64,000 bases of DNA, taken from Dehalogenimonas sp. W. GTDB taxonomy: Bacteria > Chloroflexota > Dehalococcoidia > Dehalococcoidales > Dehalococcoidaceae. The stretch spans positions 1,054,001 through 1,118,000 of the forward strand of contig NZ_CP146612.1 of the NCBI RefSeq assembly GCF_037094495.1, written 5' to 3'. Every line of letters starts with the position of its first letter. Within the stretch, counting starts at the first letter, position 1. Positions 110-63,544 of this stretch are shown here, one piece after another. The position numbers and the translations under genes are program-made. The notes under the pieces were generated by a model. It was not told the origin of the DNA. It was given only the letters and a program-made list of their open reading frames with translations, and made no database searches.

Positions 110-510
110 GCGGCAGCCGGGGATCTAAAAAGCTGAAAGCTGACTGCTGACGGCTGACGGCTGACAGCCCCCCCCCTCGTCTTTGCGAGGCTCCGCCGAA
201 GCAATCCCGGTACTCTTATTTAAATATTGGAAATTTGTAGTATTGGTAGTATTTGCCTCGCCCGCCGGGTAACTAGGCTGATAGCTGAAGGCTGATGGCT
301 AATAGCTCGTCAGGTGTTGGTCATTGTGATTTTGGTATTTGAAATTGTTTTGGATTTAGAAATTAGAGATTAGATATTCCCGGCCAAAAGTTTCACCCAC
401 CCCGTCTTCGCGAGGCTCCGCCGAAGCAATCCCGGTACTCTTATTTAAATATTGGAAATTTGTAGTATTGGTAGTATTGGTAGTATTGGTAGTATTGGTA
501 GTATTTGCCA
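110..510. repeat. Interspersed repeat block
   Basis: Non-coding mosaic of short repeat families that recur through the first 24 kb. It holds stacked AGCTGA-type units (about 126-165 and 271-310), two copies of a unit built on GCGAGGCTCCGCCGAAGC (about 180 and 410) each continuing into the TTTAAATATTGG / GTAGTATTGGTAGTATT module, and an AT-rich GGATTTAGAAATTAGAG unit near 352. At 470-510 the GGTAGTATT 9-mer is tandemly repeated. No gene is supported here. Confidence 0.85.
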
Positions 511-519
511 TTCCGGCTC

Positions 520-548
520 TTGACACTTCCCCGTTTCCGTTGTATTGT
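520..548 (+). promoter_or_regulatory. Sigma70-type promoter, distal
   Basis: TTGACA (520-525) and TATTGT (543-548) are separated by 17 bp. It lies upstream of the first pilin gene and of a second, better promoter at 623. Two perfect palindromes follow immediately, which suggests regulated transcription (inference). Confidence 0.5.
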
Positions 549-550
549 AT

Positions 551-577
551 TAGAACATAGTTCTAGTACCATGGTAC
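551..577. promoter_or_regulatory. Two abutting perfect palindromes (operator-like)
   Basis: TAGAAC-ATA-GTTCTA (551-565) is followed without a gap by the 12-bp palindrome GTACCATGGTAC (566-577). Together they lie just downstream of the promoter at 520 and about 45 bp before the one at 623, where a repressor or activator could act. The binding protein is unknown. The first palindrome resembles the GAAC/GTTC half-sites of LexA boxes, but its 3-bp gap does not match the usual 4 bp. Confidence 0.4.
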
Positions 578-38279: not shown

Positions 38280-38476
38280 ACTTCCGCCGGAAAGGCGGCA
38301 ACTCTTCGAGTTGCGGTAACCTACCGCGCAAGTCATGGTTCCGTGACCGGTGAACCGAAAGGTTCCAAGGGTACAGGTGGAAACGCCGGTGCCTCCCGTA
38401 TTTGGAAAGGAGAGCCGATGAAAAGAATCTATTCGTGTGTGGAGATGCCTATTTCGTAGGTGTCTCCTTTTGTTTT
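38280..38476 (+). ncRNA. Unidentified structured RNA, about 195 nt
   Basis: From the predicted start to a terminator the RNA folds on inspection into six consecutive hairpins: 38284-38298 (5-bp), 38299-38313 (CAACTC/GAGTTG), 38314-38326 (CGGTA/TACCG), 38332-38347 (6-bp), 38352-38365 (GAACC-GAAA-GGTTC) and 38370-38393 (with an inner GGTG-GAAA-CGCC). Two carry GNRA tetraloops. A 13-codon reading frame (ATG 38418, with GGAAAGGAG five bases upstream) overlaps the terminator. The pattern suggests a riboswitch or a free-standing regulatory RNA. I could not match it to a riboswitch class I know. Confidence 0.65.
38441..38476 (+). terminator. Intrinsic terminator of the structured RNA
   Basis: An 11-bp stem (38441-38451 with 38457-38467, two G-U pairs), loop TTTCG, then TTTTGTTTT. 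It contains the end of the 13-codon reading frame, so translation could influence its folding. Confidence 0.85.
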
Positions 38477-50161: not shown

Positions 50162-50992
50162 TTAAGTCAAGCTGGCGCTCACTGTTGAACGGTATGCCCG
50201 ATGTAATTCAGCGGTAATCGTCCCGGCCCTGCCGTTGGTGACCACTGTCCCGCCGATAGACGTAAGAGGCATCACTTCAATCAGGCTGGAGGTAATGAAC
50301 ACCTCATCGGCGTTGGTGAGGTCTTCAAGGGTTATCCGCCCTTCAATCGTCCGGATACCCAGTGTACGGGCTATTTCCAGTATCGTGACACGGGTGATTC
50401 CCGGCAGAATACCGGCTTCCGGGTCAGGGGTACGCAGCACTCTGTCTTTGACCAGAAAAATATTACCCCGATTGGTTTCCGCAACCTCGCCGTTCTCATT
50501 GAGCAGTATCGCTTCGTCGGCGCCTTGACGGTTTGCCTCAGCCGCCGCCAGGGTGTTTTCAATCTGATTAAGTGTTTTGTAGCGGTATATCGGTGACTTG
50601 GAATAGCGGCGGATGGCGACGACGGTTGCCCTCAGTCCGTTTTGGTAGTCTGCTTCCGAAGGTGGCTGATAGGTCTCAACGGTGACTGATACTGTCATCC
50701 GGCCGCCATAGCCGGCGGTAATCACCGGCCGGACCCTGGCGGTGGTCAGCCCTGACGCCTGGAGCGTCTGGCCGACGGCGTTTTTGACTGTGGTCATATC
50801 AACTGCAATCCTTAAATAGGCGGCGCCGGCCTGCATTCTCTCCAGATGGCTTTCCAGCCGGAATACCCGGCCGTTGTAACCACGCAAAGTCTCAAACACT
50901 CCGTAACCCTGGCGAAAGCCGGCGTCGTTGATGCCCACGGTGGCCTCACTTAAAGGCGAGATTATACCGTTGGTCCAGGCTGCATCCGGCAT
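50162..50992 (-). CDS. pabC: Aminodeoxychorismate lyase (class IV aminotransferase fold)
   Basis: A 276-residue PLP enzyme of fold type IV. Motifs: VGINDAGFRQGYGVFETLRG, the catalytic-Lys region SPIYRYKTLNQIENTLAA, EAILLNENGEVAETNRGNIF, LPGITRVTILEIA. Branched-chain or D-amino-acid aminotransferases share this fold, but the position behind pabB and pabA (31-bp overlap) strongly favours aminodeoxychorismate lyase, giving p-aminobenzoate for folate. It completes the pab set. Confidence 0.82.
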   Translation of the reverse strand: MPDAAWTNGIISPLSEATVGINDAGFRQGYGVFETLRGYNGRVFRLESHLERMQAGAAYLRIAVDMTTVKNAVGQTLQASGLTTARVRPVITAGYGGRMTVSVTVETYQPPSEADYQNGLRATVVAIRRYSKSPIYRYKTLNQIENTLAAAEANRQGADEAILLNENGEVAETNRGNIFLVKDRVLRTPDPEAGILPGITRVTILEIARTLGIRTIEGRITLEDLTNADEVFITSSLIEVMPLTSIGGTVVTNGRAGTITAELHRAYRSTVSASLT

Positions 50993-51588
50993 GCAGTTAA
51001 CTCCCTCCGTATTGCTTTGGTTACGGTTAAAAAATTATACAATAAGTCATGACCGACCACAGTCATGACGGATTCCGGGTGAAACTGGACACCCTCAACC
51101 GCAAAATTCTTATGACGGATTCCCATGACCGTATCACCCGATACGGCACTGATTTCTAATGCCTCCGGTAAATTGCCCCGGTCAACTGCCAGTGAATGAT
51201 AACGCCCGGCTTCAAATGGATCAGGCAAGCCGGCGAATATCGTCTGGCGGTCGTGATAAACCGGAGAACTCTTGCCGTGCGTCGGCGGTGATGCCTTGAT
51301 GATGTGGCCGCCGTAAACCGCCCCGATACACTGATGCCCCAGGCAGACACCCAGAATTGGGATCCGACCGGCGAAGCTCTTGATGACTGCATTGGATATT
51401 CCGGCCGTGTCCGGGGTGCCGGGGCCGGGGGAGATGATCAGATGTCCGGGGTTAAGGTCGCGGATTTCCCTGAGGGTTATCGCATCGTTTCTAAAGACCC
51501 GGGGGGTATAGCCTAATTCACCGACATATTGTGCCAGGTTGTAGACAAAGGAATCGTAATTATCAATGATGACCACAGACTTATTCAT
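50962..51588 (-). CDS. pabA: Glutamine amidotransferase of aminodeoxychorismate synthase
   Basis: A 208-residue class I amidotransferase subunit: VVIIDNYDSFVYNLAQYVGE, ISPGPGTPDTAG, the nucleophile Cys in LGVCLGHQCIG, and VQFHPES with the catalytic His and Glu. It supplies ammonia to PabB and may serve anthranilate synthase as well, as in Bacillus, since the family is amphibolic. The frame is open 26 codons further, but ATG 51588, overlapping the pabB end by 8 bp, fits the family start. Confidence 0.88.
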   Translation of the reverse strand: MNKSVVIIDNYDSFVYNLAQYVGELGYTPRVFRNDAITLREIRDLNPGHLIISPGPGTPDTAGISNAVIKSFAGRIPILGVCLGHQCIGAVYGGHIIKASPPTHGKSSPVYHDRQTIFAGLPDPFEAGRYHSLAVDRGNLPEALEISAVSGDTVMGIRHKNFAVEGVQFHPESVMTVVGHDLLYNFLTVTKAIRRELTACRMQPGPTV

Positions 51589-53002
51589 CGGACGCCCCCA
51601 GCGCCTGGAACATTGCCCAGGCCTTGTGCCGCGTTTCCTGGTATTCTGTTTCGGGGTCGGAGTCATAGGTCACCGCCCCGCCTGTTTGAAAAAACGCCTG
51701 ATTTTTCCTGGTGACGATGGTTCGAATGGCGATATTCAAGTCCATATCGCCGTTGAATCCCAGGTAACCGATGGCCCCGGTATATATACCGCGGCGGTGT
51801 GGTTCCAATTCCTCAATTATCTCCATGGCTCTTACCTTGGGGGCACCGGTGATAGAGCCGCCGGGGAAAGCGGCTTTCAACAGGCTGATACCATTTTGGT
51901 CTGCCCGCAGACGGCCGGTAACCGAGGAGGTCAGATGAAACACTGATGGGAAGGTTTCCAGCACCGCCAGGTCGGTAACGCTCACTGAACCGTAACAACA
52001 GACCCGGCCCAGGTCATTGCGCTCTAGGTCCACGATCATCATATTTTCAGCCCGGTCCTTTTCACTGGCCAGAAGTTCGGCAGAGATTATGGCGTCTTCC
52101 GCTGCGTTTTCGCCGCGCCGGCGTGTGCCTTTGATGGGGCGGGTTTCAACAGTATTGCCGCTGAGTTTAATGAAGCGTTCCGGTGAACTGGAGACTACAC
52201 TGAATCCGCCGCCGTCCAGATAGGTAGCAAACGGGGCTGGATTGATCCGCCGCAGGCGCTGGTATAACTCTGCCGGCGGGATTTTCAGTTCAACAGTAAA
52301 ACGTTGTGACAGGTTTACCTCAAATATGTCGCCGGAGATGATGTAATCACGAGCCCGGGCCACGGTAGCGAGGTAGTCCTCATAGCTGAAGTTGCTTTCA
52401 ATTCGGGGGATTGCCGGAACGGATAGGTTGGTGCTGCAGGGAGTAATGACGCTGCTGATGCGCCGTTTGAATTCTGCCGCACGCTCCCGCGCCGCCTGAG
52501 TCCGTCCGGCTTCATCTGTTTCCGGGAAGCCGTTGCTGATAATGTAGCCGCGCTGCTCTCGGTGGTCGTAGGCGTAGACTAAGTCATATAAGCCGAAGCG
52601 GCATTCCGGGAGTTTAAGGTCGTTTACTGTCCGGCGGGGAATTTTTTCCAGCTGCCGTCCAGCGTCATAACCAAAATAGCCCACTGCCCCGCTGCAAAAC
52701 GGCACCGGACTGTCCGGTGCCTCCAGAGCGAACGTTTTAAGCACTCGGCCGATCTCGTCAAAGGGATTACCCTGACGATGTTCTATCAATTGATTGTTGC
52801 GGGATACGGATATTCGCCGTCCCCGGCTGGTGATAAGTGCGAAAGGCCGGCTGCCGATGAAGGAATACCGGCTTTGCCGGTCACTGGTCAGGGCGCTGTC
52901 CAGATAAAAGACACCGGGATCGCCGCTCAGTATCTGAAAAATATCTGCAGGGTCAATGCCGGGATTCCATTCTTCAATCAGCGGCTGTCGTCGTTGGGTC
53001 AT
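51581..53002 (-). CDS. pabB: Aminodeoxychorismate synthase component I
   Basis: A 473-residue chorismate-utilising enzyme. The motif RPIKGTRRRGENAAEDA has Lys where anthranilate synthases have Ala (PIAGT), the residue that forms the covalent intermediate in PabB. This separates it from TrpE. Also visible are NPAPFATYLDGGGFSVVSSSPE (in two parts), ENMMIVDLERNDLGRVC and PGGSITGAPKVRAMEIIEEL. GGAAGGG lies five bases before ATG 53002. No trp genes are adjacent, in line with a folate role. Confidence 0.9.
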   Translation of the reverse strand: MTQRRQPLIEEWNPGIDPADIFQILSGDPGVFYLDSALTSDRQSRYSFIGSRPFALITSRGRRISVSRNNQLIEHRQGNPFDEIGRVLKTFALEAPDSPVPFCSGAVGYFGYDAGRQLEKIPRRTVNDLKLPECRFGLYDLVYAYDHREQRGYIISNGFPETDEAGRTQAARERAAEFKRRISSVITPCSTNLSVPAIPRIESNFSYEDYLATVARARDYIISGDIFEVNLSQRFTVELKIPPAELYQRLRRINPAPFATYLDGGGFSVVSSSPERFIKLSGNTVETRPIKGTRRRGENAAEDAIISAELLASEKDRAENMMIVDLERNDLGRVCCYGSVSVTDLAVLETFPSVFHLTSSVTGRLRADQNGISLLKAAFPGGSITGAPKVRAMEIIEELEPHRRGIYTGAIGYLGFNGDMDLNIAIRTIVTRKNQAFFQTGGAVTYDSDPETEYQETRHKAWAMFQALGASDE

Positions 53003-53021
53003 GGCTGCCCTTCCAGCGGCG

Positions 53022-53900
53022 TCATTCCCGGCGGCGGTTGGCCAGATGATAGAGTTTCTGGTAAGAGGCCCCAAAGTCCGGATTGGCCGCTTCCAAGGTG
53101 TTTTTTAAGTTGCTCATGCGGTTGATAAAATCTTCCCGGCGCCCGTCCCGGACCAGACCTGCCCATTCGACCGCCTTTTCCCCGAAGAGTATTTCCATTT
53201 CGGGCAAGGCCGGCAGATTAAGTTGTAGCGAAGCATACAATGCCGGGTCTTCCGACAGGACGCTCTCCACCAGTGTTAACAGCGCTTTATAGGTGATACC
53301 GCCGGCATCACTCATTTCGGTCAGTTTATCCAGGCTGACCAGCGCGTCAGCGGTTACAATGGCGATAAAATGGGCCAGTCCCAGCGATATGGACATCAGC
53401 CGGTCGTGTTCTTCAGGTGAAGTGATGCGCACTCGGGCTCCGCGGGTGGTCAACCACTCGTCTACCTTAACAGCCAGTAGCTGTTCTTTGTCGTTGGTGG
53501 GGGTCAGGATGATATTCTGGCCGTTCAGGCTTTCGGCGCCGGGCCCGAACACCGGATGAACTCCCAGTGTTTGTGTCTGTCCTAAACTGCGTTGCATCGC
53601 CGCCACCGGCATGACCTTGACCGAGGTCAGGTCAAAGACCATTTGACCGGCGTGCACATGCGGCGCCAGCTCGCCGCAGACCGTTTCAAAGCTGTCCACC
53701 GGCACTGAGATAATGATAATGTCGGCCATGGCCGCGCTGTCTAGCCGGTCGGTCGCCGCCACGCCGATTTCCACCGCAGCGGCCGCCAGTTTGTCCTTAT
53801 CACGGCCGATAATGCTGACGCGGTGCCCCTGATTTTTCAGCAGCCGGGCAAACCAAGCCCCCATTTTGCCGTAACCACCGACTATCGTGATGTTTTTCAA
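53022..53900 (-). CDS. tyrA: Prephenate dehydrogenase
   Basis: A 292-residue enzyme with an NAD-binding start ITIVGGYGKMGAWFARLLKN, then DIIIISVPVDSFETV, VFDLTSVKV, LGVHPVFGPG and HDRLMSISLGLAHF, the standard TyrA_TyrA/PDH pattern. It converts prephenate to 4-hydroxyphenylpyruvate for tyrosine. There is no ACT domain at its C-terminus, so feedback control by Tyr would have to come through another route, such as the operon attenuator. TTG 53900, one base after the pheA stop, gives the expected start; an ATG 16 codons earlier would overlap pheA. Confidence 0.88.
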   Translation of the reverse strand: MKNITIVGGYGKMGAWFARLLKNQGHRVSIIGRDKDKLAAAAVEIGVAATDRLDSAAMADIIIISVPVDSFETVCGELAPHVHAGQMVFDLTSVKVMPVAAMQRSLGQTQTLGVHPVFGPGAESLNGQNIILTPTNDKEQLLAVKVDEWLTTRGARVRITSPEEHDRLMSISLGLAHFIAIVTADALVSLDKLTEMSDAGGITYKALLTLVESVLSEDPALYASLQLNLPALPEMEILFGEKAVEWAGLVRDGRREDFINRMSNLKNTLEAANPDFGASYQKLYHLANRRRE

Positions 53901-53901
53901 A

Positions 53902-54969
53902 TTATCGGGCCCTCGGATATGATCCCAGAATCTTAATGAAGAGAACATGGTCTTCCAGCGCCGGCAGGGCGGTCAGAAAACTGGCATCCTGCCGATGCCC
54001 CTCAAAATCAAGATAGAAGTTGTATTCCCAGGCTTTTTTGCGGGTCGGGCGGCTTTCAATTTTAGTCAGGTTTATCTTATGTTCTGCCAGCACCCTTAGG
54101 AATTCATACAGCGCCCCAGGACGGTGCTTGACGGCGAAGACCACTGAAGTTTTATCATCGCCGGAGGGTGGGGCGTCCTTGCGTCCGATGGCGAAGAAAC
54201 GGGTAAAGTTGTTGGGGTTGTCCTGGATATCCCGCGCCAGGATTTTCATACCGTAAATGGCCGCGGCGCGTTCGCTGGCGATAGCGGCGCCATCGGCGAT
54301 ATTCTGTTCTTTTATCATTTTAACCGAACCGGCTGTATCGTAAGAGGGCATGAGTTCAAAATTCAGTTGACGTAAGAAATTACCGCACTGCCCCAGTGCC
54401 TGCGGGTGCGAATAGATCCGGCGCACCGAGTCCAGTGTTGCGCCGGGGTTGCCGATCAGGCAGTGGTTGACCCGCAGATGCAGCTCGCCGGAAACCATCA
54501 GACTGGATTCCAGCATCAGGTCATAGGAACGGGAAATACTGCCTTCAATAGAGTTTTCCATGGGGATGATGCCGAATTGCACCCCGCCGCCTTCAACTTC
54601 CCGGAATACGTTCTCCAGTGTTTCGCAAGCCTTGACTGAGGCCCGGGAGCCGAAATACTGAAAAGCCGCCTGCTCGGAGTAAGCCCCCGGTTCCCCCTGA
54701 AAGGCAACACTGCGTGACTGCCTTTGCCGGGCCAGTTTGATAATAGACTGATATAATTCCACCACTTCATCGGCGGTCATGCCTCCGGCGGCACCGACCC
54801 CGGTCACATGTTCAATGACCAGCCTCTCCCGTCCCAGGTCCTGAGGCGGGACTTCGCCGGCGGCCTTTTCCCGGCCAATGGCTTCGGCGATGGACAAGCG
54901 TTCGGCCAGCAGTTTAACGATCCCGTCGTCCAGTTCATCAACCCGGCGACGCAGTTCTTCAAGGCTCAT
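53902..54969 (-). CDS. pheA: Chorismate mutase / prephenate dehydratase
   Basis: A 355-residue bifunctional P-protein: an AroQ-type mutase helix bundle (residues 1-85; [19 protein letters not shown]), a dehydratase domain from [20 protein letters not shown] with [12 protein letters not shown], and a C-terminal ACT domain with [20 protein letters not shown] and [17 protein letters not shown]. It makes prephenate and then phenylpyruvate, with Phe feedback on the ACT domain. ATG 54969 overlaps the aroC stop by 4 bp and has AAGGA upstream. Confidence 0.95.
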
Positions 54970-56063
54970 TTGATAATCCTTCCAATAAATCCGCCGCGCA
55001 GGGCCAGATCGGCCAGCACCACCGCGGTCATTGATTCGGCGACCACTGCCGCCCGGGGTACTATACATGTATCATGGCGGCCGCCGACTTTAAGCGTTGC
55101 CTCTTCACCGCTGGTCAGGTCAACGGTACGCTGCTCCTTGGCGATGGAGGGGGTAGCCTTAACCGCCAGGCGGGCAATCAGCGGCATGCCGTTGCTGATA
55201 CCGCCGAGAATGCCCCCGGCATTATTGCCGGCAGTCCTGACCCGGCCGTCCACCATCGCAAACGGGTCGTTGCCGTCTGAGCCGCTCATCCGGGCAACCT
55301 CAGCCCCGGCCCCGAATTCCACAGCCTTGACCGCCGGGATGGCAAAATAGGCCTTCGCCAGACATCCCTCCAGTGTGTCAAAGACCGGTTCACCCAGGCC
55401 GACCGGTAAGCCGGTCGCCCAGGCTTCAATGACGCCGCCGACGGAATCACCGGCGCGCCCGGCGGTTTTAATGGCGTCTATCATCCGGGTTGCCGCTGCG
55501 ACATCGGCGCAACTGACCTCATTTTCAGCCATGATTCGGCGGATTTCACTAACATCGTCGGGCGGATCAGCCTTGATACCGCCGATTTCCACCACATGAG
55601 CCACGGTTTCAATACCGATGGTAGCCAGTAGTTTTTTAGCCACGGCTCCCGCCATGACAAAACCGGCGGTAATCCGGCCGGAGAAGCGGCCGGAGCCGCG
55701 CCAGTCGTGAAAACCGCCGTATTTTTCCCAGGCGGTAAAGTCGGCGTGTCCCGGTCGGATAAGCTTGATTACTTTTTCATATTCGGAAGAATCAATATTT
55801 CGGTTCCAGATAGACATCATGATCGGCGCTCCGGTCGTCCGTCCGTTAAAAATGCCGGAGAATATCTCCACCCGGTCTTCTTCCTTGCGCGCCGTCGCCA
55901 GCGGCCGGTTGCGGCCGCTTTTGCGTTTGTCAGCTTCCTGTTGGATATCTTCAACGGTTAGCGGCAGTCCGGCCGGACAGCCGTCAACGACGATGCCGAT
56001 GCAGTCACCGTGACTTTCGCCGAAGCTGGTAATGCGGAAAATTTCGCCCAGGGAATTATTCAC
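54966..56063 (-). CDS. aroC: Chorismate synthase
   Basis: A 365-residue FMN-dependent enzyme for the last common step, removing phosphate from EPSP. Signatures: [30 protein letters not shown]-type region [40 protein letters not shown] and the C-terminal [13 protein letters not shown]. It overlaps aroA by 8 bp upstream and pheA by 4 bp downstream. Confidence 0.97.
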
Positions 56064-57312
56064 TCAGAATCACCTTTCCTCCGGCCTGCTGAAAATCCTG
56101 CCAAAAGCCGGGATAGGTTTTATTAACACATTCTGCCCCTTCAATGACACTATCCCCGCAGACCGTTGCCAGCATGGCAAAGGCCATGGCGATACGGTGG
56201 TCATCAAAACTGTCAATGACCGCACCGTGCGGCCGGCCGCCGGTTATCAGGAGCCGGTCATTGTCCTCAGTAACGGCAATGCCCATACGTTTTAGATTTT
56301 CGGCCACCGCTCTTACCCGATCTGATTCCTTTATTCTGGCCCGGCCCAGCCCGGTCAGGATGCTGACGCCATTCGCCGCCGCGGTTAAGCAGGCAATGGT
56401 GGGTAGCAGGTCAATGGCCTCGTCAAGGTTAACCGTTAAGGCTTTTAAAGGTGTCGGCGCAACGTTGATTACCTTATTGCCTGTCGTTACTCCGGCCTCC
56501 AGCCGTTCAAGGCAGTTTAACATGAAACGGTCGGCCTGAAAACTATCAGGATTCAGCCCGGAGACGCTTATCGGACCGGCAAGGGCGCCCAGTCCCAGGA
56601 AATATGATGCCCCGGACCAGTCGCCTTCCACCGTATAATCGGCCGGTTGATAAGTTTGCGGAAGGACGCTGAATGCCGTCATGGCAGCGTCATGTTCTAC
56701 CTTAACGCCGAAATATTCCAGGTATTCAATGGTCATCCGCAGGTAATCCCTGGACCGGGCCGGGGTCGTCAGGTTGATCTTCAGGCCTTGGACAAACCGC
56801 GGCGCCGCAATCAGCAAACCGGAAATAAACTGGGAACTGACGTCGCCCGGCAGCGATACCACCCCGGCTTTGATCCGGTCGCCGGGAACCAGCAGATAAT
56901 CCAGCCCCTGTTCCGCCGTTATGCCCAGTTGTTTTAAAATAGCCGGCAGCAGGGTCATCGGCCGCCGCGCCAGACCGGGGGCAAAGGTGATTCGGCTGCG
57001 GCCGTCAAGCGTGGCGCACAGGGGTGCCAGGAAGCGCAGGGTCGCCGCAGACTGCCGGCAGTTGAGGGGCTGCGGTGACGCTTGCAGCCGGCCGCCGGTT
57101 ATTATCCAGACTCCAGGTTGCCGTTCAATGCCGGCGCCGAGTTGTTCCAGTACTTCCGCGGCTGCTTCGGTGTCGTCGGATATCAGCGGATTGATGATCC
57201 GGCTGGTGCCGGCGGCCAGAGCCGCAGCGAACAACGCCCGGATGGTATAGCTCTTGGACGGCGGGGCGTGGATGGTGCCCGCAACGGTGCTTTTACTGAT
57301 TCGGGCTTTCAT
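56056..57312 (-). CDS. aroA: EPSP synthase
   Basis: A 418-residue enzyme joining shikimate 3-phosphate and [57 protein letters not shown], and [20 protein letters not shown] with the catalytic Asp are visible, as is the late [13 protein letters not shown]. The start overlaps aroK by 20 bp. The loop GNAGTA-type glyphosate-sensitive motif is replaced here by a [10 protein letters not shown] sequence, closer to class II-like variants. Confidence 0.94.
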
Positions 57313-57823
57313 TAATATCCAGTTTCCTGATTATTTCATCAATAACGGCGGCGAAGGGCCGGTTGCCGGTGCGGACGGTAATATCCGCAGCCGCTTCGTA
57401 CAGCGGTCGTCGGGTCGCTTCCAATTCCCTGATAAACTGTTCCCGGTCCGGCCGGTCCAGCAACGGACGCTTGCGGCTGAACGCCAGCCTGTCGTTGAGG
57501 GCGGCGGTGCCGGTCTGGAGGTAGACGACTGTTGCGGCCGACTTCAACCGTTCAATATTTCCCGGCCTGGCCACCACGCCGCCGCCGCAGGCGATAACGG
57601 AGTTCTCCGCGATATCGCTCACAGACGTAATCACCGCTGTTTCAAGGTCGCGGAATTCGGTTTCGCCGCCGGACTTGAAGATATTGACGATACTCATCCC
57701 GGCCTGCTGTTCAATCAGATGGTCTGTTTCAATAAAATTCCGTCCCAGTCGGCGCGCCAGCCGTTTGCCCACGGTGGATTTACCGGAACCCATAAAGCCG
57801 ATCAACGCAATATTGCTTTTCAT
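57293..57823 (-). CDS. aroK: Shikimate kinase
   Basis: A 176-residue P-loop kinase. Walker A is GFMGSGKSTVGKRL, the substrate site FIETDHLIEQQAG has the conserved Asp, then GGETEFRDLE and ACGGGVVARP. ATG 57823 overlaps the aroE stop by 4 bp; the longer open frame upstream is non-conserved. Confidence 0.95.
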   Translation of the reverse strand: MKSNIALIGFMGSGKSTVGKRLARRLGRNFIETDHLIEQQAGMSIVNIFKSGGETEFRDLETAVITSVSDIAENSVIACGGGVVARPGNIERLKSAATVVYLQTGTAALNDRLAFSRKRPLLDRPDREQFIRELEATRRPLYEAAADITVRTGNRPFAAVIDEIIRKLDINESPNQ

Positions 57824-58650
57824 ACCAATGCCGCTTCGGCCGCCTGCAGCATTACTGCCAGCGGTGCCGGTTGCCCGGTCCATAGTTCAAATGAGAGCGC
57901 CCCCTGAGCTGCCAGCATCTCCAGACCGCCGATGACGGCGCAACCGGCCGCCTCGGCCTCCCGCATTAAACAGGTGCGGCGGGGACGATAAACGGTGTCA
58001 AACACGGTCAGATCCGGCCTCAGCCATTCTTGCGGCAAGGGCGTAGCCGCCTCCTCCGGACTCAATCCGACACTGGTGGCGTTGACGACCAGTACCGCGC
58101 CTTCAAGAGCCTGCCGATAACCTTCAGCGGACGTTTCAAATGCCCGCGTTCCGGTTTCAGCAGCCAGGGCTCTTGCCGTGCTGAAAGTGCGGTTGATGAC
58201 CGCTACTTCGGCACCGGCGTCCTTCAGGGCAAAAACAACCGCTCTGGCCGCTCCACCGGCGCCCAGAACAACCGCCTGTCTGCCTTCAGGTTCAAAACCG
58301 CTTTTTCTGAGGGCGGCCAGAAATCCCGGCGCATCGGTGTTGTAACCGGTCAGCTTCCCGTTCTGATTGACGATGGTATTGACAGCCCCGATACGCTGCG
58401 CGGCGGCGTCCACTGCATCAAGGAGCGACATCACTGCTGTTTTGTGGGGTATAGTAATGTTGGCCCCCCGCAGGTTGGCCCCCCGCAGGCTGCTGACGGC
58501 GGCCGCCAGATGGTCGGTCGTTACTCTTAAAGCCTCGTAGGTGTAAGGGAGTTGTCGCTCGCGAAAGGCGGCGTTGTGCATCGCCGGCGAAACTGAATGC
58601 GCCACCGGGTCGCCGATCAGAACCACCAATTTGGTATCCGCTGTCATCAT
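57820..58650 (-). CDS. aroE: Shikimate dehydrogenase (NADP)
   Basis: A 276-residue enzyme reducing 3-dehydroshikimate. VVLIGDPVAHSVSPAMHNAA holds the substrate-binding Ser pair, GANITIPHKTAVMSLLD the catalytic Lys, VLGAGGAARAVVFAL the NADP loop, and NATSVGLSP follows. The NRTFSTA segment after the loop fits NADP use. Its start overlaps the aroD stop. Confidence 0.96.
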   Translation of the reverse strand: MMTADTKLVVLIGDPVAHSVSPAMHNAAFRERQLPYTYEALRVTTDHLAAAVSSLRGANLRGANITIPHKTAVMSLLDAVDAAAQRIGAVNTIVNQNGKLTGYNTDAPGFLAALRKSGFEPEGRQAVVLGAGGAARAVVFALKDAGAEVAVINRTFSTARALAAETGTRAFETSAEGYRQALEGAVLVVNATSVGLSPEEAATPLPQEWLRPDLTVFDTVYRPRRTCLMREAEAAGCAVIGGLEMLAAQGALSFELWTGQPAPLAVMLQAAEAALV

Positions 58651-59300
58651 GGTTTTAATAAACGGTAGATTTCCGCCAGTTGTGCTGCGGTCAGTTGGCC
58701 CGGTGCCGATTCGCGGCCGGATTCCAGCGCCGCATAGGTGAATTCCGCCCCGGCCAGCGGTGCCAGCACCCGGCTGAGCAGCCCTGCTTCCCCCATACCG
58801 AAGACGGTCAGCCGGCAGCCCTGGAATTCCTGATAAAGCCGTAGCAGGTTAAGGTTGTCCTCAATGCCGTGAGCCGTACTCACCAGCTTACAGATATCAG
58901 CCCCGGCAGCGATGGCTTGGCCGATAATGCCTTTAAGTTCTGCGGGCGGCGGGGTTAATTCAAAATTATGGTACGAAATCAAACAGCGGGTTTTCTTTTT
59001 TACCAGTTCCGCCATCTTTTTCAGATTTGGCGTGGCCAGCTCCAGATCAATGATGGCGGCGCCCAGATTCAGCGCCTTCAGCAGTTCTTCCTTGCGCTGA
59101 GCTTCACTGCCCTGCCAGGCGCCGCCCTCAGTTGCCAGCCGGTTGCAGGCCAGCCAGGGTTTGTTAAGGTGACGCACCACCTCCGGCCAGGCCTCGCCGA
59201 TGAGGTCTATTCTGACTTCAAAAAGGTCGGTCGCCGGCGCGGCGGCGGCAATGGCTGCCGTATCGGCCCGGGTGATGACGGTACAGACAACCGGTTTCAT
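58647..59300 (-). CDS. aroD: 3-dehydroquinate dehydratase, type I
   Basis: A 217-residue class I enzyme using a Schiff-base Lys. FEVRIDLIGEAWPEVV, RCLISYHNFELTPP with the His, and AAGADICKLVSTAHGIEDNL with the Lys are visible. Many bacteria have the unrelated type II (AroQ); the type I form here is noteworthy only as a choice. It abuts aroB, sharing one base. Confidence 0.94.
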   Translation of the reverse strand: MKPVVCTVITRADTAAIAAAAPATDLFEVRIDLIGEAWPEVVRHLNKPWLACNRLATEGGAWQGSEAQRKEELLKALNLGAAIIDLELATPNLKKMAELVKKKTRCLISYHNFELTPPPAELKGIIGQAIAAGADICKLVSTAHGIEDNLNLLRLYQEFQGCRLTVFGMGEAGLLSRVLAPLAGAEFTYAALESGRESAPGQLTAAQLAEIYRLLKP

Positions 59301-60376
59301 CAGCGTAATACCTCGGCAATGATCTCCGGGTTGACATCAGTGCGGGCGGTTACGGTACCGATACCGGTCGGCAGGATGAATTTCAGTTTGCCGTTATCTA
59401 TTTTTTTGTCGTGAAGCATGGCCCGCATTAAAGCCGGGCTGGCATTTTTGGCAACCATGGACACCGGCAGACCGGCGGCCATGATAACCTTTAAAATACG
59501 TTCCAGATCATTCCCGCTGAGCATGCCCAGCCGATAGGCCATCCGGGAGGCAGCCGCCATGCCTATCGCAACTGCTGTGCCGTGGCCGACCTTGAAATTG
59601 GACACGCTTTCCACGGCATGGCCGAAGGTATGCCCGAAATTCAGGATGTGCCGCAGTCCCCGGTCACCTTCGTCCTGTTCCACCACGTTTACCTTCACCT
59701 CGGCAGCCCGGTGTACGGCGTAGGTCAGGGTTTTGACATCCCGATTCAGCAGTACCGGCATGTTGGCTTCCAGAAAGGCAAACAGCACCGGGTCGTGGAT
59801 TACCGCACTTTTGATGACCTCAGCCATCCCATTGCGGATTTCCTTGAGCGGCAAGGTCAACAGGGTAGTGGTATCACTGGCCACCAGGCGCGGCTGATAG
59901 AAGGCCCCGGCCATATTTTTCAACCGGCCCACGTTCACCGCCACCTTGCCGCCGATACCGGAGTCCACCTGGGCCAGCAGCGTTGTCGGTATCTGCACAA
60001 ACGGCACGCCGCGCTGATATGTAGCGGCCACGAAACCGGTCAGGTCGCCGATGACACCGCCGCCCAGCGCCAGAATCGGCGTGGTGCGTTCCACCTTTCG
60101 GCGCGCCAGGCTTTCATAGAGCTTACCGGCGGTGGTCAGGGATTTACTGGCTTCGCCGTCCGGTACAGTGATCACCTCCGGTTCAAATCCGGAACTTGTC
60201 AGGGTTTCGGTCAATCCCGCGGCATAAAGCCGCCCCACCGTCGGATTGGTAATCACCACCACCCGGCCGCTGCTGTTCCGTTCGGCCAGCAAATCGCCTG
60301 TTTGCCCCAGCACTCCCTCGCCGATACAGACGGGGTAAGATCGTTCCTTGAGATTAACGTGTATCTGGTAAGTCAT
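59300..60376 (-). CDS. aroB: 3-dehydroquinate synthase
   Basis: A 358-residue NAD- and metal-dependent enzyme that cyclises DAHP. Visible: PTPILALGGGVIGDLTGFVA in the form TPILALGGGVIGDLTGF, YQRGVPFVQIPTTLLAQVDS, GGKVAVNVGRLKNMAGAFYQ, and metal-site residues in RHILNFGHTFGHAVESV. Four bases separate its start from the aroF stop. Confidence 0.97.
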   Translation of the reverse strand: MTYQIHVNLKERSYPVCIGEGVLGQTGDLLAERNSSGRVVVITNPTVGRLYAAGLTETLTSSGFEPEVITVPDGEASKSLTTAGKLYESLARRKVERTTPILALGGGVIGDLTGFVAATYQRGVPFVQIPTTLLAQVDSGIGGKVAVNVGRLKNMAGAFYQPRLVASDTTTLLTLPLKEIRNGMAEVIKSAVIHDPVLFAFLEANMPVLLNRDVKTLTYAVHRAAEVKVNVVEQDEGDRGLRHILNFGHTFGHAVESVSNFKVGHGTAVAIGMAAASRMAYRLGMLSGNDLERILKVIMAAGLPVSMVAKNASPALMRAMLHDKKIDNGKLKFILPTGIGTVTARTDVNPEIIAEVLR

Positions 60377-60380
60377 AGCC

Positions 60381-61430
60381 TTATTTTACGGTAATCTGAC
60401 GTATCTGTCTTGCCAATCCGATGATTTCCTTAAGTTCAGCCGGGCTGATCATCTGGGAGGCATCGCACAGCGCTTCTTCCGGTCGGTCATGCACTTCAAT
60501 CATCAGCCCGGAGGCTCCGGCAGCCATGGCTGCCAGGCTCATCGGCCTGATCAGGTCGCGCCGGCCGGTAGCGTGGCTGGGGTCAACAATGATAGGCAGG
60601 AATGTTTCCTTCTGCACCACCGGGACCGCCGACAGGTCCAATTGGTAGCGGGTGTAATTTTTGCCCTTGCCCACCGGCACGATACCGCGTTCACACAGAA
60701 TGATGTCTTTGTTGCCCTCGGCGGCGATATATTCGGCGAAGGACAGGAATTCTTCAATTGAGGCGCCGAAATGCCGTTTGAAGATAATGGGCAATTTTGT
60801 CCGGGCCGCGGTTTGCAGCAAATCCTGGTCGTACATGTTGCGGGAGCCGATCTGGATAATATCTACATACTGGCTGACCAGAGCCGCCTGGGCCTCGCCG
60901 CGCACCTCGGTCACTACCGGCATGCCGAATTTTTCACCGGCCTCTTTGAGCCAGGTCAGCGCCTCAATAGCGCCGGCTTCCCCGGAGGCACCCAGTCCCT
61001 GGAAGGAATGCACGCTGGAGCGGGGTTTGAAGACGCCGCCCCTCAGAATATGGGCGCCGGCTTCTTTCGCCTGTTCGGCAATCCGGAACAGCGCATCCCG
61101 GTCTTCTACGGCGCAGGGCCCGGCGATAATTACCGGCTCATCGCCGCCCAGTTCCACGTTGCCGATTTTGACGATGTGGGTCCTGGTCTCGCCGTAGGCA
61201 TTGGAATACTCCCGGTTTATCAATTTGTAGGGCGCTTCAATCATTCTGGCCTCCTTCACTCCCGGTAAGGCTGCCAGATGGGCAAAATCAACCTGCCGCT
61301 CATCGCCGACCAATCCGATGACCGTCAGGTGCTGTCCGTGCGACACGTCGGTGCGCAGGCCGACCTTGGTCACCTCGTCAATGACGTGCTGGAGTTGTTC
61401 CGGGCTGGCATCCTTTTTCATGATAATCAT
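60381..61430 (-). CDS. aroF: DAHP synthase, type I beta with N-terminal regulatory domain
   Basis: A 349-residue first enzyme of the pathway, condensing PEP and erythrose 4-phosphate. An N-terminal ferredoxin-like domain (about 1-70), as in Thermotoga-type enzymes that are feedback-inhibited through it, precedes the KDO8P/DAHP barrel with IIAGPCAVEDRDALF, LRGGVFKPRSSVHSFQG, FKRHFGASIEEF and VDPSHATGRRDLI. It is the first gene of the operon and is preceded by an attenuator. ATG 61430 is used; three codons later is a second ATG. Confidence 0.95.
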   Translation of the reverse strand: MIIMKKDASPEQLQHVIDEVTKVGLRTDVSHGQHLTVIGLVGDERQVDFAHLAALPGVKEARMIEAPYKLINREYSNAYGETRTHIVKIGNVELGGDEPVIIAGPCAVEDRDALFRIAEQAKEAGAHILRGGVFKPRSSVHSFQGLGASGEAGAIEALTWLKEAGEKFGMPVVTEVRGEAQAALVSQYVDIIQIGSRNMYDQDLLQTAARTKLPIIFKRHFGASIEEFLSFAEYIAAEGNKDIILCERGIVPVGKGKNYTRYQLDLSAVPVVQKETFLPIIVDPSHATGRRDLIRPMSLAAMAAGASGLMIEVHDRPEEALCDASQMISPAELKEIIGLARQIRQITVK

Positions 61431-61464
61431 TTCCTGTTCTCCTTTTTCGTTATCCTCGTAAACT

Positions 61465-61490
61465 AAAAAATCCTCCCGTTTGGGAGGATT
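61465..61490 (-). terminator. Attenuator terminator of the aromatic operon
   Basis: On the minus strand AATCCTCCC-AAAC-GGGAGGATT forms a perfect 9-bp stem followed by TTTT. It lies 35 bp before aroF. GGGAGGTTT at 61548-61540 within the leader peptide codons can pair with the left arm and compete with it. Confidence 0.92.
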
Positions 61491-61524
61491 TACTGCCTGA
61501 ATGCTTCTTATGTTTTAGGTGCTG

Positions 61525-61608
61525 TTACGCAGAAACGCCAAACCTCCCTGTTGTGCCCTTGGGGCACCAGGTAAAGTAATAATAGGCGTAAAAGCTTTGT
61601 GCGACCAT
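61525..61608 (-). CDS. Aromatic leader peptide of the aro operon
   Basis: A 27-residue peptide whose residues 6-14 read FYAYYYFTW: two Phe, four Tyr, one Trp in nine positions, with another Phe at 23. Such runs are the hallmark of amino-acid-sensing leader peptides in trp, phe and his operons of other bacteria. The sensing codons are followed at once by a hairpin (GTGCCC/GGGCAC, 61553-61567), then by the antiterminator arm, stop codon and terminator. Ribosome stalling on scarce charged tRNA would free the antiterminator and switch on the operon. The mRNA appears to start at or one to three bases before the ATG, so translation is probably leaderless. Confidence 0.88.
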   Translation of the reverse strand: MVAQSFYAYYYFTWCPKGTTGRFGVSA

Positions 61609-61616
61609 TTGAATGA

Positions 61617-61645
61617 AGAATAACACGAGGCGGGCAGGGTGTCAA
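61617..61645 (-). promoter_or_regulatory. Promoter of the aromatic operon
   Basis: On the minus strand TTGACA (61645-61640), 17-bp spacer and TATTCT (61622-61617). The leader-peptide ATG begins eight bases beyond the -10 box. Confidence 0.85.
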
Positions 61646-61708: not shown

Positions 61709-61737
61709 TTGACAATGGCTTGTATTGTTCCTATGAT
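61709..61737 (+). promoter_or_regulatory. Promoter of the DUF3068 gene
   Basis: TTGACA (61709-61714), 17-bp spacer and TATGAT (61732-61737). The start would be near 61744, about 53 nt before the start codon. Confidence 0.75.
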
Positions 61738-61796
61738 GATTATCATTAACATAATTGAACAGATATTCAATCTGTTCAAAAAAGAAAGGGGTCCAA

Positions 61797-62636
61797 ATGC
61801 GGCGTATACTGGTGTCTCTTGGCGCTGTCCTGCTCGTCTTTGCCTTGGTCTGGTTGTATCTCATTTTTCCCGGCATGGCCAAACTCCCGGCTGATTATGA
61901 AAAGGTGTATCGGTTTGAAGGAACGGTTCAGGTTTTTAATCCGGCAACCGGGACCCTGGTGCCGATCAATACCAAAATGGATCGGACTCTGAACGCAACA
62001 GAGGTCAACGACAATGATGCCCTGATTCTGCAACAGGTCATTAAGTTCACCGAATCTACTTCAGGCGTGCCTTTGTCGGCGATTAATCCGGCTTTAGCTG
62101 CCCTGGACTCTACTGAAACCTACGCGGTGGATCGCACCACTCGCGCCAATGTCGCCGGCGGCGACAAGTCTCGCAGCGGTCAGTTCACCTTCCCGGCTGA
62201 TACCCAGCAGGAAACCTATCAATTCTGGTCGGCGACCACTGGTAGCTCCCTGCCTGCGACATTCGTCGGTGAAGAGACAATTAATGGCGTTAAAGTCTAT
62301 GTTTTCAAAATTGACAGCAAGGGGAATGCTTATCCCAACGCTGCCAACGGTGCCCCTCAAACCGTGGACGTAGCCACCACCATCAAGGTTGAGCCGGTCA
62401 GCGGAACTCCGGTGTACACTACGTCCAAAACCACTATTATCATGCAGGCCGGGGCGACCACCTTCATCCCGGTGCTGATCAACGAAAGCACCTTTACTCA
62501 GGCAACTGTTGACGAAGCCGCGGACGAAGCCGCTTCCAACCGCAGTCTGATTCTGTGGGCCAGTGTCTACGGTTTCTGGGCAGCCATCGGGCTGGGCGTT
62601 ATTCTGGTTCTGATCGGTTTCCTAAAGAAGTCCTGA
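61797..62636 (+). CDS. DUF3068 (PorA-like) membrane-anchored protein
   Basis: A 279-residue protein with an N-terminal membrane segment (about 5-23), a large Thr/Ala-rich external domain and a C-terminal membrane segment (about 252-273). Sequences such as LPADYEKVYRFEGTVQVFNP, DSTETYAVDRTTRANVAGGD and QFTFPADTQQETYQFW match the DUF3068 architecture, best known from Actinobacteria. Its function is unknown. ATG 61797 has AAAGGGG six bases upstream. A terminator separates it from the heliorhodopsin gene, so the two are not simply one operon. Confidence 0.8.
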   Translation: MRRILVSLGAVLLVFALVWLYLIFPGMAKLPADYEKVYRFEGTVQVFNPATGTLVPINTKMDRTLNATEVNDNDALILQQVIKFTESTSGVPLSAINPALAALDSTETYAVDRTTRANVAGGDKSRSGQFTFPADTQQETYQFWSATTGSSLPATFVGEETINGVKVYVFKIDSKGNAYPNAANGAPQTVDVATTIKVEPVSGTPVYTTSKTTIIMQAGATTFIPVLINESTFTQATVDEAADEAASNRSLILWASVYGFWAAIGLGVILVLIGFLKKS

Positions 62637-62773: not shown

Positions 62774-63544
62774 ATGGAACACGACCTGAAGTACCGTAAA
62801 CTGCGTACCTGGAACCTTATTATGGGTGGGCTCCACCTGATTCAGGCGGCGGTGATATTTGCCCTCAGTCGGGACTTCACCATGCCGGTAACCAGTGCTT
62901 TTCTTAATTTTGATCAAGCCACTCAGTCTTTGAAACCGGTGACGGACACGGTTTTTAACCTGCCCTTCGGCGGGGGCGTGGCTTTGTTTCTGCTTATTTC
63001 GTCAATCGCCCATTTCACTATTGCCTCGCCAAAAGTATTCCCCTGGTATGCCAGGAACCTGTCCAGAGGCATCAATTACGCCCGGTGGTTTGAGTATTCA
63101 CTCAGCGCTTCGGTAATGGTGGTGCTGATAGCCTTATTAAGCGGTTTGTCCGATATCGCCGCCTTGTTGAGCGTCTTTACCCTGACCGCGGTGATGAACC
63201 TGTGCGGCCTGTTGATGGAAGTGCGTAATCAGACTACTGCCAAAACTGATTGGGCGCCTTTCTGGGTGGGGTCACTGGCCGGGATAATTCCGTGGCTCGC
63301 CATCGCCTTCTATTTCTTCGGTTCCATTGCCACTGCCGATGGTGCCGTGCCGACTTTTGTCTATTTCATTCTGCCGATACTCTTTGTCTTTTTTAACCTT
63401 TTTGCCATCAATATGTGGCTGCAATACAAAAAAGTTGGCCGCTGGGCGGATTACCTTTACGGTGAGCGGGTTTATATTCTGCTGAGTCTGCTGGCTAAGT
63501 CAGCGCTGGCCTGGCAGGTGTTTGCCGGGACGCTGCGGCCTTAA
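62774..63544 (+). CDS. Heliorhodopsin
   Basis: A 256-residue seven-helix protein matching heliorhodopsins in length and motifs. TM3 has ARWFEYSLSAS with Glu107, the equivalent of the Schiff-base counterion Glu107 of heliorhodopsin 48C12. TM7 has LAKSALAWQVFAGTLRP with Lys242 in place of the retinal Lys241. His21 and His80 match conserved histidines of the family's polar pocket. Heliorhodopsins bind retinal, have inverted topology and do not pump ions; proposed roles are signalling or enzyme regulation. GGGAGGGG lies upstream of the ATG. The stop overlaps the convergent acpS stop by 4 bp. No carotenoid or retinal synthesis gene is in the window. Confidence 0.95.
   Translation: MEHDLKYRKLRTWNLIMGGLHLIQAAVIFALSRDFTMPVTSAFLNFDQATQSLKPVTDTVFNLPFGGGVALFLLISSIAHFTIASPKVFPWYARNLSRGINYARWFEYSLSASVMVVLIALLSGLSDIAALLSVFTLTAVMNLCGLLMEVRNQTTAKTDWAPFWVGSLAGIIPWLAIAFYFFGSIATADGAVPTFVYFILPILFVFFNLFAINMWLQYKKVGRWADYLYGERVYILLSLLAKSALAWQVFAGTLRP

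Follow-up and report, generated by a model that had tools for sequence, protein, structure and literature searches.

The leader upstream of aroF in the window, by which we mean the whole 64-kb stretch of Dehalogenimonas DNA analysed, is very probably a classical ribosome-mediated transcription attenuator of the aro-phe-tyr operon. This reading, already put forward in the original prediction, is strongly backed by conservation, by covariation and by state-by-state folding. In the proposed mechanism, transcription would start at the leader AUG or slightly upstream of it, and a ribosome would set out to translate the leader peptide. When charged tRNA-Tyr or tRNA-Phe is scarce, this ribosome would stall in the FYAYYYF(TW) run, where it would cover region 1 of the RNA and free region 2 (GGGAGG). 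The free region 2 could then pair with the nascent CCUCCC of region 3, so that no terminator would form and the aro-phe-tyr operon would be transcribed. With the tRNAs charged, the ribosome would reach the stop codon and cover part of region 2, leaving regions 3 and 4 to form the terminator. If the leader is not translated, region 1 would pair with region 2 and the terminator would form again. The parts of the leader and the genes that it serves are as follows.

61617 to 61645, minus strand: sigma-70-type promoter TTGACA-17-TATTCT, from which leader and operon are transcribed (10 of 12 matches in a promoter scan), with the -35 box TTGACA at 61645-61640, a 17-nt spacer and the -10 box TATTCT at 61622-61617
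61525 to 61608, minus strand: leader peptide ORF, 27 codons (MVAQSFYAYYYFTWCPKGTTGRFGVSA) plus TAA, with the ATG at 61608 and the TAA at 61527-61525
61567 to 61593, minus strand: sensing codons F-Y-A-Y-Y-Y-F-T-W, whose 3' part (UUUACCUG) doubles as region 1
61553 to 61567, minus strand: hairpin GTGCCC-CAA-GGGCAC between the sensing codons and region 2, the upper part of the 1:2 (protector) stem
61540 to 61548, minus strand: region 2, GGGAGGTTT, the antiterminator 5' arm, within the leader ORF (codons G-R-F)
61482 to 61491, minus strand: region 3, AAATCCTCCC, the terminator left arm and at the same time the antiterminator 3' arm
61463 to 61477, minus strand: region 4, GGGAGGATTT, with the T tract, completing the intrinsic terminator (hairpin -15.1 kcal/mol)
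60381 to 61430, minus strand: aroF, DAHP synthase type I-beta with a ferredoxin-like N-terminal domain (Pfam PF00793, PF18152; NCBIfam NF006421)
53022 to 60376, minus strand: aroB-aroD-aroE-aroK-aroA-aroC-pheA(CM-PDT-ACT)-tyrA, the conserved remainder of the nine-gene operon
50162 to 53074, minus strand: pabB-like, pabA-like and class-IV aminotransferase (pabC-like) genes, a lineage-specific operon tail

The promoter, the 27-codon peptide with FYAYYYFTW, the hairpin, GGGAGGTTT and the perfect terminator had all been predicted, and all are found in their places on the minus strand. The hairpin said to follow directly on the sensing codons is indeed present, but it belongs to a longer region 1:2 stem. 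The perfect intrinsic terminator, AAATCCTCCC-AAAC-GGGAGGATTT at 61491-61468 (minus strand), is followed by T's (61491-61463 with the T tract) and ends 38 nt ahead of aroF, whose ATG lies at 61430. The leader fold beats 200 of 200 dinucleotide shuffles (z -3.84). Within the window the leader is the sole ATG ORF of 8-44 codons with at least seven aromatic residues in nine codons, and five Markov-shuffled windows contain no ORF with even six or more. The leader thus contains a short ORF that could be translated and in which codons for the amino acids produced by the operon are clustered. A chance aromatic ORF is ruled out by this window control together with the conservation described below.

The class Dehalococcoidia was searched for the aroF protein in 393 genomes, and the orthologs form a distinct group at about 59% identity or above. 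Among 53 orthologous aroF loci with an intact upstream region, 51 carry a clear aromatic leader ORF and one a weak one (L016); the remaining aroF (L053), which is the second copy within its genome, lacks a leader. Orthologs with a missing or degenerate leader are therefore few. A second, partly overlapping named set (Dehalococcoidia, Dehalococcoidales and Chloroflexi MAGs) agrees, with the leader in most loci. In the merged sets, leader and terminator occur in 118 of 120 loci tested: comparison of the aroF upstream regions identifies the orthologous leader ORF in 118 loci, and an intrinsic terminator lies between the leader ORF and the first structural gene in 118 of the 120. The merged leaders represent 93 distinct peptides, 68 sequence clusters and at least 19 family-level groups. 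The -35 box TTGACA (in one case TTGACG) is found in 90 of the 93 distinct relatives.

The leader is not a companion of just any DAHP synthase gene. This possibility is ruled out by 16 aroF paralogs of 42-46% identity, which have no leader save for L062, a doubtful case in which a TTG-start ORF passes the strict aromatic filter. The leader is likewise absent from the archaeal aroF relatives, the nearest ones outside the class (52-60% identity), and this aroF type is confined to Dehalococcoidia in a phylum-wide sample of 400 genomes. Compared across Dehalococcoidia, both the peptide and the alternative pairing are kept in relatives, as originally predicted.

The mutually exclusive 2:3 antiterminator pairing is kept by covariation across the 68 clusters. 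Spacer lengths vary, so re-pairing permutations were used instead of a per-column covariation table by alignment. The duplex of region 2 with its own region 3 has -14.49 kcal/mol, compared with -12.93 kcal/mol when region 3 is exchanged between clusters, and none of 20,000 permutations reaches the own value. Terminator-loop position +1 and the base 5' of region 2 are T-A in 30 cases and C-G in 12, while position +2 and the region 2 flank are T-A in 24 and C-G in 19. At these two positions 62-63% of the own pairs are Watson-Crick against 41-44% after permutation. The observed fraction is reached by 2 of 10,000 permutations at position +1 and by 0 of 10,000 at position +2. As the loci are related by descent, all these permutation counts are strong but not strict probabilities. 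Since these bases of the loop are unpaired in the terminator, their covariation backs the antiterminator specifically. Joint changes of region 2, left arm and right arm are also seen in some relatives, with TGAGAGG/CCTCTCA/AGAGGG on the one hand and TGGGAGG/CCTCCCA/GGAGGG on the other. Where region 3 of a relative reads CCTCTC, its region 2 reads GAGAGG and its region 4 AGAGGG; relatives with CCCCCC versions have G-runs (GGGGGG) on both sides.

The folds of the window leader change with the position of the ribosome. When no ribosome is present, UUUACCUG, which belongs to the sensing codons, forms the 1:2 stem with CAGGGAGGUU (-17.5 kcal/mol). A ribosome whose A site is at Tyr-11 or Trp-14 keeps region 2 available for pairing with region 3, and one that has reached the stop codon gives the terminator. 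When a ribosome is placed at the last aromatic codon as if stalled, 61 of 68 clusters fold into the antiterminator (shuffled segments would give 35.9), and in the other 7 the minimum-energy fold of the stalled state lacks it; with the ribosome placed at the stop codon, all 68 form the terminator. In 44 of the 68, region 2 pairs with region 1 when no ribosome is present, as it does in the window. In 45 of the 68 clusters a hairpin separates the sensing codons from region 2, and 34 of these reach p of 0.05 or below. Its probable role is to bring region 1 to region 2, and it may in addition pause the polymerase. The median distance from the last aromatic codon to the start of region 2 is 19 nt, and that from the end of region 2 to the stop codon is 8 nt. 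With this geometry a stall in the run would free region 2 and a ribosome at the stop would mask it. The exception is the family-level group f32, where some 20-26 nt separate the end of region 2 from the stop, so that a ribosome there would not cover it. In the window fold the terminator becomes more stable than the 2:3 pairing as soon as region 4 has been transcribed, so antitermination has to be a kinetic effect, which is also the case in other attenuators.

Two other explanations of the same elements have to be weighed. The terminator could be constitutive, or controlled by another ligand or a protein, with the aromatic ORF merely incidental. The strength of the bare terminator speaks for this. 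However, the ORF, its aromatic run and the competing pairing are all kept in 68 diverged clusters, and the site offers no riboswitch or T-box at the Rfam gathering score, so that we regard an incidental ORF as extremely improbable. This negative result covers an Rfam search of the whole window and a low-threshold scan of the leader. No covariance-model match to the T-box (RF00230) lies upstream of aroF within the window, and the Phe_leader model RF01859 scores 33.8 bits at the leader, below its gathering score of 55, with the match falling mostly on the terminator. Alternatively, the leader peptide itself might act, by nascent-chain stalling or in trans, instead of serving as a codon-counting sensor. 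The peTrpL peptide of Sinorhizobium, described in PMC7298713 as a leader peptide acting in trans, would be a precedent, and within the genus a recognisable C-terminal part (GT.GR.GV.A) is kept. Beyond the genus, however, the C-terminus diverges in step with the RNA pairing (GR, GG, CAWG and GSGL all encode G-runs) and is not kept as a peptide, which makes an active peptide highly unlikely.

Tyrosine and phenylalanine are the likely signals for the attenuator. Tyr occurs in 93 of 93 distinct peptides (mean 4.1) and Phe in 92 of 93 (mean 2.6), whereas Trp has a mean of 1.0 and lies within the sensing run in just 40 of 68 clusters. Across the leaders the Tyr codons are mixed (220 TAT, 163 TAC) but the amino acid is retained, a sign that selection acts on the peptide. 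The original prediction had Phe, Tyr and Trp sensed at once. Its Phe and Tyr part is supported by these counts, but an equal share for Trp is not, given the 40 of 68 clusters and the separate T-box of trpE. This T-box (RF00230, 100.4 bits) lies upstream of trpE in the same genome (L159 2776-3057; G000:C1:1367775-1368056), where a Trp leader peptide was looked for and none was found. In its alignment UGG adjoins the conserved GAA of the specifier loop, and we read it as specific for Trp. T-boxes number three in each of 11 family genomes.

It is nevertheless conceivable that the same attenuator senses Phe, Tyr and Trp together as an OR gate. TGG ends the sensing run in the window, FTWC is kept in 8 of 8 genus genomes checked, F, Y and W are all present in 75 of 93 distinct peptides, and a stall at W14 still frees region 2 in the fold. 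On the other hand, the run contains W in only 40 of 68 clusters, sister-genus leaders have no W in it (NYYYFTK), and W codons outside the run often encode the G-rich region 2 itself (CAWG, CAWE). The window TGG sits in the 1:2 stem. RNA structure can therefore account for W, and with trpE under its own T-box we consider a three-amino-acid gate rather unlikely. Somewhat more credible, though still tentative and short of an even chance, is a broader reading in which one leader peptide would serve as a Tyr/Phe OR gate (with Trp in part of the class) for the nine-gene pathway. It would have been kept across most Dehalococcoidia with this aroF, its start shifting between leaderless and Shine-Dalgarno-led while the RNA switch was kept, and would share the work with the trpE T-box, which would handle tryptophan.

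The two modes of start are suggested by the distance from the -10 box to the ATG, which is bimodal among the leaders: 5-12 nt in 33 and 14-47 nt in 57. In the short-distance group 30 of 33 have no Shine-Dalgarno match, while in the long-distance group 51 of 57 have a match of at least 3 nt (about 32 expected). Orthologous switches thus seem to use either start mode, and the start looks leaderless in about a third of the leaders and Shine-Dalgarno-led in the rest. The window leader belongs to the short-distance group, with its ATG 8 nt past the -10 box TATTCT and no Shine-Dalgarno sequence, and is probably translated from a leaderless mRNA. Leaderless and Shine-Dalgarno-led starts around the same switch are a natural experiment on the timing of translation start relative to the polymerase in attenuation.

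The conserved unit downstream consists of the nine genes aroF-B-D-E-K-A-C-pheA-tyrA. The 12-gene operon originally described does exist here, but its pabB-, pabA- and pabC-like tail is lineage-specific and occurs in 2 of 8 genus genomes, this one and one other. The absence of an ACT domain from TyrA, which had been taken to give transcriptional control more weight, is confirmed in that Pfam matches none there. PheA does have an ACT domain, and AroF has the ferredoxin-like domain that mediates feedback inhibition in Thermotoga. Transcriptional control is therefore not the sole control. A second DAHP synthase, about 41% identical, is located directly downstream of 23S-5S rRNA genes and has no aromatic leader (L160, G000:C1:1019000-1023600). 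The nearest aroF relatives outside Dehalococcoidia being archaeal (L141, L142, L147-L151; 52-60% identity), their sequences suggest gene transfer between archaea and Dehalococcoidia.

A comparison with known attenuators shows that the closest case is aroR-aroF of C. glutamicum, whose leader was first noted in PMC4046766. There a Phe-Tyr-Phe leader precedes aroF and is reported to respond to Phe limitation but not to Tyr (Neshat et al. 2014, as summarized in PMC11802643). Both systems have an aromatic leader peptide before a DAHP synthase aroF operon and, very probably in the present case, use ribosome-mediated attenuation, while the C. glutamicum one belongs to another phylum and has a shorter sensing run. 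The Dehalogenimonas run is dominated by Tyr, and its operon covers all of the chorismate pathway together with pheA and tyrA. In E. coli, pheL-pheA and trpL-trp (Rfam RF01859, RF00513) likewise have alternative 1:2, 2:3 and 3:4 pairings, of which 1:2 is tentative for the present leader, and product codons inside region 1, but they are single-amino-acid sensors on terminal branches. The putative leaderless start has a precedent in C. glutamicum ilvBNC, where a leader peptide is made without a ribosome binding site (Morbach et al. 2000, as cited in PMC4046766); that system concerns branched-chain amino acids and has no related sequence. The trpE T-box of the same genome also senses tRNA charging for aromatic biosynthesis, but it binds the tRNA directly and has no leader peptide. 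In a survey of Actinobacteria, operons for Phe or Tyr were reported to have no conserved RNA element (PMC1262725).

The mechanism is thus already known from E. coli pheL and C. glutamicum aroR, and what is new is a deeply conserved case in Chloroflexota. In the open-access papers searched, no relevant work on attenuation in Dehalococcoides or Chloroflexi and no earlier report was found. The leader extends classical attenuation to this phylum, and comparison between relatives supports its alternative pairing. Organohalide-respiring Dehalococcoidia are hard to grow and little is known of their gene regulation; the leader offers a concrete and testable handle on how they control the synthesis of aromatic amino acids.

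Several other elements were observed in the window. Divergent from the attenuator, a PorA-like gene (61755-62633) adjoins a heliorhodopsin gene at 62774-63541 (plus strand; Pfam PF18761, E 6.5e-101). The PorA-like gene has a promoter TTGACA-17-TATGAT at 61709-61737 (plus strand), and just downstream of it a perfect 10-bp inverted repeat, TTGAACAGAT-tgaat-ATCTGTTCAA at 61755-61779, looks like an operator. A molybdenum cofactor riboswitch (RF01055, 70.7 bits) is found at 38292-38428 (plus strand). At 441-572 (minus strand), a short ORF with tandem YYQ repeats (KYYQYYQYYQYYQYYK) is a short in-frame DNA repeat.
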